NCBI RefSeq assembly: GCF_021044625.1
Contig: NZ_CP087999.1
Span: 5,105,001 to 5,169,000, forward strand
Direction of reading: 5' to 3'
Source of the DNA: Geomonas sp. RF6
GTDB lineage: Bacteria; Desulfobacterota; Desulfuromonadia; Geobacterales; Geobacteraceae
Length of the DNA: 64,000 nucleotides
The translations under genes and the position numbers were made by a program. The notes beneath the pieces were generated by a model that did not search any database, had not been told where the DNA came from, and saw only the letters and a program-made list of their open reading frames with translations. Position 1 is the stretch's first letter. Each line of letters begins with the position of its first letter. Positions 7,162-39,981 of this stretch are shown in pieces.

Positions 7162-7943
7162 AGGGGAACCCGTACAGTTTATTTAAAAGGGATACGGAAA
7201 TGGGGGGGAGGAGACGTGAGCTGACATGTAGGCCGGAATAAGCGCTAGCGTTTCCGGCATCCGCTGGGGCGCGGCTGCGTCTGTGGTGGACTGCCGGGAA
7301 CGCCTGGCGGCTTATCCCGGCCTACGGTGACTCGATGGGCTCGACGTTGTCGTTGCTGCCGCAGGTTGGGGAACCGATACTTTTTTAGGATGGTTAGGGT
7401 AATGGGGGGGGGGAGACGTGAACTGACATGTAGGCCGGAATAAGCGCTAGCGTTTCCGGCATCCACTGGGGCGCGGCTGCGTCTGCGGTGGACTGCCGGG
7501 AACGCCTGGCGGCTTATCCCGGCCTACGGTGACTGGGTAGGCTCGACGTTTTCGTTGCTGCCGCAGGTTGGGGAACCGATACAGCTTGTTTAAGATGATT
7601 ACGGTAATGGGGGGAGGAGACGTGAAGTGACATGTAGGCCGGAATAAGCGCTAGCGTTTCCGGCATCCCCTGGGGCGCGGCTGCGTCTGTGGTGGACTGC
7701 CGGGAACGCCTGGCGGCTTATCCCGGCCTACGGTGACTCGATAGGCTCGACGTTTTCGTTGCTGCGGCAGGTTGGGGAACCGATACAGCTTGTTTAAGAT
7801 GGTTACGGTAATGGGGGGAGGAGACGTGAAGTGACATGTAGGCCGGAATAAGCGCTAGCGTTTCCGGCATCCGCTGGGGCGCGGCTGCGTCTGTGGTGGA
7901 CTGCCGGGAACGCCTGGCGGCTTATCCCGGCCTACGGTGACTC
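7162..7943. repeat. 203-bp tandem repeat, about 3.8 units, each carrying a REP/BIME pair
   Basis: Units begin with GGGGAACC(G)ATACAG at about 7162, 7368, 7570 and 7774; spacing is 202-204 bases apart from the slightly longer first unit. Each holds a poly-G run of variable length, the half-site GTAGGCCGGAATAAGC...TTTCCGGCA, a GC-rich spacer and the opposite half-site TGCCGGGAACGC...CCCGGCCTAC. Units differ at only a few positions, so amplification is recent. No convincing protein is encoded. It fills the gap between the divergently oriented VOC-side region and the recG 3' end. Confidence 0.9.
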
Positions 7944-8107
7944 GCCCCCCCCCTTCCACGGAGGGAGCTTTTATCGGAGGGACGCGTGCAGGCAAGCGAT
8001 TTTGGTGGTTTGCGGCAGGGGATCGTTACGCGATGGACGCACGTGGACTGCCGGGAACGCCTCGCGGCTTATCCCGGCCTACGGTGACTCGCCAGGCGCA
8101 ACGCCGG
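7944..8107. repeat. poly-C edge and solitary REP half-site next to recG
   Basis: After the tandem array comes a run of C (from 7944), then unique sequence and a single half-site TGCCGGGAACGCCTCG...CCCGGCCTAC at 8049-8082, which is the right half of the BIME in the array. It ends at the recG stop codon. No gene seen. Confidence 0.75.
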
Positions 8108-10414
8108 CTATGCGATGGAGGCAAGCTCGAGCCTGCCCCCCCAGCGGCGGATAAGTTCGCGGCGCAGCGTGTCGTGGCCGGGGGCGCGGAAATGGGGGTC
8201 ATCCTCTACAAGGGCGAACGCCTCCGTTCTTGCCTCTTCCAGCACCCCTGCGTCGCGCAGGAGATCGGCCACCTTAAGCTCGGGAATCCCCGCCTGGCGG
8301 GTGCCGAAGAAGTCGCCGGGGCCGCGGATCTCCAGATCGGCTTCTGCGATGACGAAGCCGTCGTTGCTCTGCTCCATCACCTCGAGTCGCCTCAGGCTAT
8401 CTTCGGAGACGCGGTCGCCGGTCATGAGGATGCAGCGCGAGCGGGCGCTGCCGCGCCCTACCCTGCCGCGAAGCTGGTGCAGCTGTGACAGGCCGAAACG
8501 CTCCGCGTGCTCCACCACCATGACGGTGACGTTCGGCACATCGATCCCCACCTCGATGACGGTCGTTGCCACGAGGATGTCGCTCTCGCCCGCCTTGAAC
8601 GCCTTCATTACCGCTTCCTTCTCGGCCGCGGCCATCCTGCCGTGCAGGACGCCGACGCGCAAGTCAGGGAAGATCTTCGTGCTCAACTCCTCAGCCATCT
8701 GCACCGCCGCCTTCAGGTCGCTCTTCTCGGTCTCTTCCACCAGGGGATAGATGATGTAGGCCTGCCGACCCTGGCTCACCTCTTCGCGCACGACTCCGTA
8801 CACCTGCTTGCGCCGCGACTCGCGCGCTACCTTCGTCTCTATCGGCGTTCTCCCCGGCGGGAGCTCATCGATAACCGAGAGCGAGAGGTCACCGAAGACG
8901 GTCATGGAGAGGGTGCGCGGTATCGGGGTGGCGGTCATGACAAGGATGTCCGGATTGATCCCTTTCCGCTTCAGAAGGGCCCGCTGCACGACGCCGAACC
9001 GGTGCTGCTCGTCGATGACCCCGAGCCCCAGCCGCCTGAACTCCACCTTCTCCTGGATCACCGCATGGGTCCCCACAACGATCTGCGTCTCTCCGGAGGC
9101 GATCTTTCCCAGCGTGTCGCTCTTCCCCTTGATGCTCCCGGTCAGAAGCGCGGTAGTCACTCCCAGGGTGTCGCAGTAGCCGCGGATGTTCAGATAGTGC
9201 TGCTCGGCGAGGAGCTCGGTGGGCGCCATAATAGCGACCTGGTAGTCGTTTTCCACCGCGATGAGCGCAGCCATGAGCGCCACAAGGGTCTTCCCGCAAC
9301 CGACGTCACCCTGCACCAGCCTGTGCATCGGGTGCGGAGTCATCATGTCCTCCTTTATCTCGGTGAGGACGCGGCGCTGGGCACCGGTGAGGGAAAAAGG
9401 GAGGAGCTTCGTGAGCTCCTTCGTGTAGCGGTGGGTGACCTGGAAGCTGATCCCCTCCTCCAGCGCGATGCCGCGCTTCTTGAGGGCGAGCCCGAGCTGC
9501 AGGAAGAAGAATTCGTCAAAGGCGAGAGATCTGTGTGCCGCACCGCGCCCCTCGTTCAGCTCCGCGAGGCGAGCCGTCGCCGGATCCGGATCGTGCGATT
9601 CCTTCAGCGCCCGCGGCAGGGGGAGAAGTGCCTGGCGCTCCACGATCTCGGCGGGGAGTAGATCGGGGACGAAACGCGCGTAGTCCCGCACGACCTGGCG
9701 CATGACCTTGCGCATCACCTTCTGGGTCACCCCTTCCGTCAGCGGGTACACCGGGAGTATGCGTCCGAAGTTCTCCGGATCGCGCGCCATGACCTCGGCG
9801 AGCTCTTCCCCCTCGCCAGCCCATTCCACCTCCGGGTGGTGCATCTCGCGCTGGTAGCCGAACTGGGAGACCTCGCCGATGAAGATCCCGCGCCGCCCCG
9901 GGAGCCAATTCTTCTTCATGAAGGCAGGGTGGAAGTGGAACCACTTCAACGTGAGGCTCCCGGTTTCGTCCTTTACGATCGCCTCGAAGTAGCGCCGCCC
10001 CCCCTTCGTGGTCATCTCCTGCGCAGACTCCACGGAAGCAAAAAACGCCGCGCTGCTGCCCGGCCGGAGCGCCGCAATCCTTTGCAGCTCGCGCCGGTCC
10101 TCGTACCGGTGCGGCAGGACGTAGAGGGCGTCCTCCACCGTGCACATCCCCTTTTTGGAAAGGATGTCGGACAGCCTGGGCCCCACCCCCTTGATGACGC
10201 GTATGGGGGTGGCGAGCTCGGCGGGATGCTGGAGATCCTGCGGTTTCCGGATCATGGGCTTCTCCGCTTTTTCTTTGGGGGTGTGCAGCGAGATGCGCAG
10301 GGAGCCGTCGACGGCCTCCACGCTGAGGAGGTCTCCGGGCCTGAGGGAGAGGGAGTCCCTGATCTCCTCGGGGAGCGCGAGGGTGCCGTCTGGGGAGAGA
10401 GTGATGATCGGCAT
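8108..10414 (-). CDS. recG: ATP-dependent DNA helicase RecG with N-terminal AbrB-like domain
   Basis: RecG remodels stalled replication forks and Holliday junctions. The 768-residue protein has a wedge/OB region (about 60-300), Walker A GDVGCGKT, the DEQH box in VIDEQHRFGV, TATPIPRTL and the C-terminal helicase motif QLRGRVGRG. Residues 1-45 (ITLSPDGTLALPEEI, LSLRPGDLLSVEAVDG) look like a SpoVT/AbrB swapped-hairpin domain, which is unusual for RecG and makes it longer than the common 680-700. An alternative start at the Met near residue 54 has a better ribosome site, so the fused domain could be partly bypassed. A terminator-like hairpin separates it from the upstream DUF1858 gene. Confidence 0.95.
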   Translation of the reverse strand: MPIITLSPDGTLALPEEIRDSLSLRPGDLLSVEAVDGSLRISLHTPKEKAEKPMIRKPQDLQHPAELATPIRVIKGVGPRLSDILSKKGMCTVEDALYVLPHRYEDRRELQRIAALRPGSSAAFFASVESAQEMTTKGGRRYFEAIVKDETGSLTLKWFHFHPAFMKKNWLPGRRGIFIGEVSQFGYQREMHHPEVEWAGEGEELAEVMARDPENFGRILPVYPLTEGVTQKVMRKVMRQVVRDYARFVPDLLPAEIVERQALLPLPRALKESHDPDPATARLAELNEGRGAAHRSLAFDEFFFLQLGLALKKRGIALEEGISFQVTHRYTKELTKLLPFSLTGAQRRVLTEIKEDMMTPHPMHRLVQGDVGCGKTLVALMAALIAVENDYQVAIMAPTELLAEQHYLNIRGYCDTLGVTTALLTGSIKGKSDTLGKIASGETQIVVGTHAVIQEKVEFRRLGLGVIDEQHRFGVVQRALLKRKGINPDILVMTATPIPRTLSMTVFGDLSLSVIDELPPGRTPIETKVARESRRKQVYGVVREEVSQGRQAYIIYPLVEETEKSDLKAAVQMAEELSTKIFPDLRVGVLHGRMAAAEKEAVMKAFKAGESDILVATTVIEVGIDVPNVTVMVVEHAERFGLSQLHQLRGRVGRGSARSRCILMTGDRVSEDSLRRLEVMEQSNDGFVIAEADLEIRGPGDFFGTRQAGIPELKVADLLRDAGVLEEARTEAFALVEDDPHFRAPGHDTLRRELIRRWGGRLELASIA

Positions 10415-10437
10415 CGGAAAGGAAGGGGGAAAGAAAC

Positions 10438-10466
10438 CGGGCGGAGGCCGATGTGGCCGCCGCCCG
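10438..10466 (-). terminator. intrinsic terminator after the DUF1858 gene
   Basis: On the minus strand CCGGGCGGCGGCC...GGCCTCCGCCCGG forms a strong stem followed by TTTCTTT. It lies between the DUF1858 stop and the recG start. Confidence 0.65.
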
Positions 10467-10474
10467 GGTCGGTC

Positions 10475-38941: not shown

Positions 38942-39981
38942 TCAGACCTGGACAATGGACAACGCCCTTTCCAGGGCCTGCAACTGCCGCTTCAACCCGT
39001 CATTGCATTCAAGCTCTTTTATCAATCTTTGGTGTATCTTCGCCGCCGAGCTACTCGTTCGCAGCGAAAGAACCTCGCTAATATGTTTGTTAGTAGCGCC
39101 ACAGTGCTTTTTCAGCACGTAGACGCACAACTTACGCCTGATATCCCCTTTCCTCTTAACTTCATCCAAGGCACAACCAAAGTGCTGGCAGAGTCGACCA
39201 AGAGTCATTTCCACATGCATCGTTTGGCTCAGAGCCTTCCTATGTGCTACCTCCTCGTCATCAAGTCGATTACTGTCAACGTTTGAGAGTACGTCAGCCA
39301 CAAATGCTTCGTCACCGAGGATGCCGCCGGGGTAAGCCTTCTCCAGGGGGCTTTCCGTACCCTCAGCGATCACAACTTCAACGAAGGCCCTGTAGGCAGA
39401 TTTCGCCTGGCTGACATCAGCTCCGAAAGTGGCGAGGATACTTCGACTGCTCACCATCCCGTCGGTGATATCCGACACGTAGGCGTGATAACTGCTGTAA
39501 GGGTAGTCTTCTGGCCGCACAACAATCTTCGCCCGAACCGGATTTAGATGTATGTAGCGGCTCAACTCTGCCAAGTAGCTGTCTTTATCTATGACAATGG
39601 ACTTATATCTCCCCTGAAAAAGATGGCCGCTCCGTTTCCGCTTTGTGTTGGTATAGACTGAATACGACCCATTCAAATAATGCATGACTCTTTGAAGATT
39701 CATTCTCGGTGTTTCTATTAGCAAATGGTAGTGGTTTGACATCAACACGTAACAATGAAGAATGAAGCCGAATTTTTTCTTCGCTTCCAAAAGATATTCC
39801 CTGAACTTCTCATAATCCCGCTTCGTAAAGAAGATCTTCTTCCGCTCGTTCCCTCGCGATGTTACGTGATAAAGAGCCCCTTCAAACTCAATCCGCAATG
39901 GTCTGGTCATCTCGCACTTCCTCCTTTTCAGGAAGAGGTTAAATTACTTTTGTCCAATGTCCAGGTGTGACCCCTTGGTGT
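38939..39981. mobile_element. full-length HUH transposon (REP-associated transposase type)
   Basis: The element is bounded by imperfect inverted ends: GGGTCAGACCTGGACAATGG at 38939 and, read inward from the other side, GGGGTCACACCTGGACATTG near 39977. It contains one transposase gene whose stop codon lies inside the left end. Four shortened relatives lie between 39986 and 42067. A target duplication is not evident. Confidence 0.75.
38942..39910 (-). CDS. REP-associated tyrosine transposase (HUH, IS200-like)
   Basis: The 322-residue protein shows the Y1 HUH signature: LHCYVLMSNHYHLLIETP supplies the His-x-His metal site and SRYIHLNPVRAKIV the catalytic tyrosine. GHLFQGRYKS is the conserved block between them. 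The N-terminus (MTRPLRIEFEGALYHVTSRG) is typical of the group. Residues about 225-310 (LGRLCQHFGCALDEVKRKG, NKHISEVLSL) resemble a DnaA-like C-terminal helix-turn-helix. A strong ribosome site (AAAGGAGGA) precedes ATG 39910. The last codons and TGA stop fall within the element's terminal repeat. The gene appears intact and could act on the shortened copies nearby. Confidence 0.9.
   Translation of the reverse strand: MTRPLRIEFEGALYHVTSRGNERKKIFFTKRDYEKFREYLLEAKKKFGFILHCYVLMSNHYHLLIETPRMNLQRVMHYLNGSYSVYTNTKRKRSGHLFQGRYKSIVIDKDSYLAELSRYIHLNPVRAKIVVRPEDYPYSSYHAYVSDITDGMVSSRSILATFGADVSQAKSAYRAFVEVVIAEGTESPLEKAYPGGILGDEAFVADVLSNVDSNRLDDEEVAHRKALSQTMHVEMTLGRLCQHFGCALDEVKRKGDIRRKLCVYVLKKHCGATNKHISEVLSLRTSSSAAKIHQRLIKELECNDGLKRQLQALERALSIVQV

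Follow-up and report, generated by a model that had tools for sequence, protein, structure and literature searches.

An AbrB-fold domain at the N terminus of RecG throughout one bacterial order, a possible clasp for two helicase molecules

The recG gene of Geomonas sp. RF6 raises the question of why a DNA helicase should begin with a short domain of the AbrB type, and what that domain could do for the enzyme behind it. The gene lies in a stretch of 64,000 nucleotides of contig NZ_CP087999.1 (positions 5,105,001 to 5,169,000 of the forward strand), which is called the window here. The coordinates, strand and frame that a sequence-only reading had assigned to the RecG open reading frame (ORF) were right and are listed with its parts in Table 1. 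The encoded protein scores 1021.5 bits against the NCBIfam RecG model NF008168, which has a cut-off of 718, and its matches to RecG_wedge (PF17191), DEAD (PF00270), Helicase_C (PF00271) and RecG_dom3_C (PF19833) all exceed the Pfam cut-offs. The best solved-structure match of its full-length predicted model is the RecG of T. maritima (1gm5). Judged by these matches, the ORF is a complete RecG helicase. We read the gene as the order's housekeeping recG, taking the order to be Geobacterales; the genes upstream of it are a 66-aa DUF1858 gene and greA.

Table 1. Features of the recG locus, with positions counted from the first nucleotide of the window.
Feature	Position	Strand	Remarks
recG	8108..10414	-	768 aa + stop; ATG start
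RecG core of ordinary type (wedge; both motor domains; C-terminus of RecG domain 3), residues 67-768	8111..10216	-	Profiles, fold match
Variable linker, residues 47-66	10217..10276	-	pLDDT <50 at residues 47-61
Met54 codon, possible internal start	10253..10255	-	
GGAG preceding Met54	10262..10265	-	
AbrB/SpoVT/MazE-fold domain, residues 1-46	10277..10414	-	Profiles, predicted model, fold matches, conservation
Leader rich in pyrimidines, lacking GGAG, GAGG and AGGA, from the hairpin to ATG1	10415..10436	-	
Terminator-like, GC-rich hairpin shortly before the ATG of recG	10437..10467	-	

Two further features were also observed in the window. Just downstream of recG, at 7203-8103, lies a tandem array in which a 204-nt unit occurs four times and a 61-nt core five times; a 20-base piece of the core has 253 occurrences in the genome with up to two mismatches and none in the reversed control. 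We liken this array to REP elements. A Y1-type transposase-like gene at about 39548-39877 on the minus strand, among six loci of the genome that score above the PF01797 cut-off, may be a RAYT partner of the repeats.

The sequence-only reading had described the first 45 or so residues of the protein as AbrB-type and foreign to ordinary RecG. Taken by themselves, the window's own profile scores are marginal: PF04014 matches the N terminus with E 3.3e-5 and 24.2 bits, which is 0.5 bit under its cut-off of 24.7, and the whole protein with 18.9 bits, and the AbrB model TIGR01439 matches the N terminus with E 1.9e-5 and 24.3 bits, below its cut-off of 28.3. At the level of the family the domain appears clearly. 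PF04014 was matched at E<=1e-3 by 55 of the 64 distinct RecG N termini of the order, with a best value of 1.6e-13, and the other Pfam matches among these sequences were to MraZ in three and to CDC48_N in one. When 58 genomes of the order were scanned, several RecG ORFs scored above the curated cut-off of PF04014 and stood among the top matches (e.g., 49.3 bits in genome G009). A profile built from the 64 N termini returned PHS018, SpoVT and AbrB as its top PDB sequences. We also evaluated a single-chain model of the isolated domain (pLDDT 85.8, pTM 0.54), for which Foldseek ranks 1-20 were occupied by AbrB, SpoVT, MazE and Sso7c4, together with two small pSSV proteins, none of them at E<=0.001 with so short a chain. 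The predicted domain superposed on the AbrB N-domain 1yfb with TM scores of 0.78 and 0.75. VIA-align Z values were 7.0 to SpoVT and 6.3 to AbrB, as against 2.6 or less for unrelated rows, all of which lie below the tool's caution line of Z 8. Three residues, P15, L22 and G27, are conserved in at least 90% of the order's sequences. Taken together, the family profiles, the PDB profile search and the predicted fold indicate that residues 1-46 are a SpoVT-AbrB/MazE-fold domain, which bears out the first description. A MazE-type antitoxin, which would be a small protein beside a toxin gene, was considered and ruled out, as the domain sits within a 768-aa RecG and its upstream neighbours are the DUF1858 gene and greA.

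A comparison of RecG N termini across the order, as had been proposed from the window alone, found the domain in every relative read. It was present in all 64 distinct RecG sequences, which came from four families (82 loci read, repeats removed), and was joined to the core by linkers of 13-119 residues. Scanning 141 genomes of the order gave a RecG match in 136. In a survey of 226 genomes of the class, 119 of them from the order, the domain was found in all 118 order genomes that had a recG match, genome G073 being the one without such a match; by a count made by eye on matches listed to about E 1.5e-5, the profile match fell within an ORF of 475-893 aa in at least 116 of the 119. The domain was confirmed from the DNA in G074 and G062. 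Five weak or broken cases (G094, in which recG is split between contigs, and G067, G099, G101 and G126) were read individually, and each carries the domain before the RecG core at 26-58 bits. Divergent members include locus L078, at 10.8 bits by the seed profile, and G074, G126 and G101, at about 26-28 bits. A patchy distribution was rejected on reading six complete RecGs that align from residue 56 or later (G036, G042, G044, G045, G070 and G139), all of which have the domain, either diverged in sequence or set off from the core by a longer linker.

Outside the order, the 5' regions of 66 recG loci (49 from the class and 17 from the rest of the phylum, out of 68 loci, with some genomes counted twice and three upstream frames reaching the edge of the stretch read) scored at most 3.6 bits against the domain profile. 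The corresponding floor of 42 bits for order members is circular, the profile having been made from those 64 sequences, and the outside scores and the Pfam matches are independent of it. In 43 of the 49 class loci the frame opens 41 residues or fewer before the core, and the remaining six, with 60-85 residues, gave no match to the profile. A scan of 394 genomes of the phylum gave profile matches in RecG-sized ORFs in all 12 order genomes; outside the order, the longest ORF with a match, among the matches listed, had 630 aa and lay away from the recG of its genome (G391). A scan of named genomes gave matches in close relatives only. Other RecGs of the phylum (the genes at L116, L117, L118, L126, L128, L131 and L132) begin with an extension unlike this domain, some 100 aa long and helical-looking by eye. 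Apparent alignments to residues 9-24 in G496, G511, G288, G510 and G549 were discarded, as by eye they are of this kind. This extension showed no match to the domain profile, none to Pfam in L116, L126 or L128, and no significant PDB sequence match for L116.

In a tree of the RecG core, the 62 rows of the order were separated from 26 others by one branch with an SH-aLRT value of 100; the tree was built by a quick method, and a single origin is compatible with it rather than proven by it. Two loci were omitted from this and other full-length work, L075 at a contig end and L048 for an early end of its frame. At L048 (4001-4936), on a metagenome-derived Geobacter contig, the recG frame stops after 312 residues, which may reflect a frameshift or an assembly error. 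Two labels did not agree with the RecG sequences that bear them. Locus L063, labelled geobacteraceae_2, lacks the domain, and its RecG is 73% identical to outside loci and at best 57% identical to order members; on this RecG identity it was counted outside the order. Locus L074, labelled geobacteraceae_1, clusters outside the order in the core tree. From the comparison within the phylum, one gain of the domain at the base of the order would be the simplest account.

The sequence-only reading was to be refuted by relatives that lack the domain and by an upstream frame that is not translated, and the data speak against both. Across the 64 sequences the first codon is ATG in 55, GTG in seven and TTG in two. 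In 168 sequence pairs drawn from 20 members of the Geomonas clade, pooled dN/dS was 0.32 for residues 1-46, 0.41 for the linker, 0.15 for the wedge and 0.08 for the motor, which indicates that the domain is under purifying selection as protein, weaker than that on the core. The upstream frame is therefore translated. Most leaders ahead of it lack a Shine-Dalgarno motif. ATG1 of the window has no GGAG-type motif, and GGAG, GAGG or AGGA was found at -18 to -5 in 15 of the 64 order leaders. The Shine-Dalgarno contrast with class loci outside the order is not a sharp one, such a motif being counted in 23 of 46 of these under the more lenient rule of accepting any candidate start. The 79-nt stretch of the window that contains the hairpin gave a shuffle z-score of -3.22, and the last 60 nt of the leader fold at -20 kcal/mol or lower in 19 of 21 window-clade loci as against five of 43 elsewhere, by a count made by eye on energies controlled for GC content in the window only. 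The hairpin resembles a terminator of the DUF1858 gene that extends into the start of recG. No sigma-70-like site was found upstream of recG, which may be expressed by read-through or from a promoter of its own.

A start at ATG54 would yield a RecG of normal length, and a short form made from this codon had been suggested on the ground of its ribosome-binding site. In the window itself the suggestion holds up to a point, as GGAG precedes ATG54 while ATG1 lacks such a motif, but the arrangement is not general, and seven of 61 relatives have unrelated internal starts instead. Among the 62 complete sequences, eight have an in-frame start after GGAG, GAGG or AGGA between residue 47 and the core, and these eight (the window, L008, L010, L020, L027, L079, L088 and L095) use scattered, unrelated places. 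Three of them (L008, L010 and L088) have an ATG five residues before the core motif, L020 has such an ATG together with a TTG, and L027, L079 and L095 have GTG or TTG. Met54 of the window is the sole motif-preceded ATG among the 62 that lies more than five residues before the core motif. An ATG of any kind between residue 47 and the core occurs in 36 of 62, mostly near the core and without a motif. These counts make a conserved short form of RecG unlikely, and a short form may exist in the species of the window alone.

We next consider what the domain might contact. The fold neighbours are DNA-binding proteins, and one of two roles suggested from the window alone, the other being dimerisation, was that the domain could recruit the helicase; in the fuller form of this idea, a dimer of the domain would still bind DNA and thereby add a grip on duplex DNA, or a preferred site, to RecG. 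To set this idea against the sequences, the DNA-facing segment was defined as P-11 to P+7 around P15 and compared between the 64 RecGs and stand-alone AbrB-type proteins of the order, for which 15 of 23 loci were used; the other eight gave no ORF or an unlikely one with the RecG profile, so this yardstick leans to proteins that resemble the RecG domain. The mean net charge of the segment was -1.28 in RecG, with a positive value in two of 64, as against +2.4 in the stand-alone proteins, with a positive value in 14 of 15. At P-6 a basic residue is present in three of 64 RecGs as compared with 11 of 15 stand-alone proteins, and an acidic one in 37 of 64 as compared with none of 15. P+1 shows the same pattern (basic, 3/64 and 8/15; acidic, 30/64 and 0/15), and at P+4 basic residues are fewer in RecG (24/64) than in the stand-alone proteins (12/15). 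Recruitment by DNA binding is weakened by this acidic character, which is shared by most members, and on these data it is the less likely role.

The residues known from AbrB itself do not separate the two sets. The accessible part of the AbrB study proposes R8, R15, R23 and R24 as the DNA-contact set (PMC4022651). Basic residues at these four places occur in 0, 8, 24 and 13 of the 64 RecGs and in 1, 0, 12 and 3 of the 15 stand-alone proteins. By these counts AbrB's arginines are a poor yardstick, and what distinguishes RecG from the stand-alone proteins appears to be the differences at other places and the added acids. The scarcity of R8, R15 and R24 among stand-alone relatives too is one of several points that keep a DNA-binding dimer in consideration. 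The others are the DNA-binding N-domains that form its nearest folds (AbrB, SpoVT, MazE and Sso7c4), an arginine at the R23 place in 24 of 64 RecGs including that of the window, linkers that are Lys-rich by eye in the Geomonas clade, and the R15A variant of AbrB, which according to the same portion of that study has an affinity lowered only about five-fold and still binds DNA (PMC4022651). For Sso7c4, the part of the report at hand describes a loss of most DNA binding when both of its two arginines are replaced (PMC5222340). Against these points stand the rarity in RecG of the basic residues at P-6 and P+1 that are common in the stand-alone proteins and the acids found there instead, and we regard a domain that still binds DNA as unlikely.

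Based on the fold, dimerisation is the most likely and most natural reading of the domain. The AbrB N-domain is described as a stable dimer in the available part of its report (PMC4022651). Because the fold is elsewhere completed by two interleaved chains, the domain would join two RecG molecules through flexible linkers, and residues 47-61 have pLDDT below 50 in the full-length model. In both single-chain models residues 30-35 and 38-43 form strands, and the first two strands are reduced to one bridge residue each (6 and 12), a pattern that would fit a fold that is completed by a second chain. Because the DNA-facing part is acidic, the domain would dimerise or tether RecG rather than anchor it to DNA, a step that we infer less firmly than the dimer. 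Two motors linked in this way may engage a fork, D-loop or R-loop at both of its arms or sides, or may be concentrated at stalled forks. We give a probability of about one half to this account as a whole, in which RecG acquired the domain once, at the root of the order, and the domain most likely holds two RecGs together as a tether rather than a DNA anchor.

Several observations count against a clasp. E. coli RecG is described as an active monomer in the accessible portions of two papers (PMC7290993; PMC3368886), the different N-terminal extensions of D. radiodurans and A. aeolicus RecG are reported to be dispensable in the available part of PMC7889586, and purifying selection acts less strongly on the domain than on the core. 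The last two would also suit a domain that was fixed once and has been tolerated since as a passenger, as would the divergence of some members (L078, G074, G126 and G101). Against a passenger, the domain was lost in none of 64 distinct sequences from four families and has a dN/dS near 0.3, and a mere passenger seems highly improbable. Somewhat better placed, although still improbable, is a docking role, in which the domain would bind another protein, for example SSB, a part of the replisome or a stand-alone protein of the AbrB fold, and dimerisation would be incidental. The order has many stand-alone AbrB-type genes, with whose products the fold could pair, and RecG functions together with SSB according to the accessible part of PMC7290993; however, the positions conserved in at least 90% of sequences appear structural, and no candidate partner turned up incidentally.

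The clasp admits a stronger form, in which an AbrB-type clasp with an acidified DNA-binding face makes the order's RecG an obligate dimer and two tethered fork-remodelling motors cooperate. We offer this form tentatively, as a possibility with the odds against it. If it were true, the motors might act, for example, on both arms of one fork, on both ends of a D-loop, or at two converging forks. An obligate paired mode of RecG was not found described elsewhere in the literature searched. The same literature, from which most subscription papers are absent, gave no recognisable RecG fused to an AbrB domain in titles and abstract openings, and no paper on RecG with SpoVT. Both parts are already known, and what appears new against the literature searched is the combination of a known helicase with a known fold. 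A RecG that gained a dimer-forming fold, apparently a single time, and retained it in every member read would provide a natural test of paired RecG in fork remodelling, and it would represent a reuse of the AbrB fold within an enzyme, with the DNA-facing side acidified.

RecG of the window shares its wedge, motor and C-terminal domains with E. coli RecG and with the RecGs of other orders in its class, and the core is comparable over its length. To our knowledge, E. coli RecG has no N-terminal domain, and the RecGs read from other orders in the class lack the AbrB-fold domain that is present in the window's order. The RecGs of T. maritima (1gm5), D. radiodurans and A. aeolicus likewise have an N-terminal extension. 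In the accessible parts of the reports, the function of the T. maritima extension is given as not known (PMC7290993), neither growth nor gamma resistance requires the 99-aa extension of D. radiodurans RecG, and the activity of A. aeolicus RecG does not depend on its extension (PMC7889586). By profile and predicted structure, the RecG domain has the same fold as the N-domains of AbrB, SpoVT and MazE and as Sso7c4. Those proteins are dimeric DNA-binding regulators, antitoxins and chromatin proteins, whereas the RecG domain has an acidic DNA-facing segment and is fused to a helicase.
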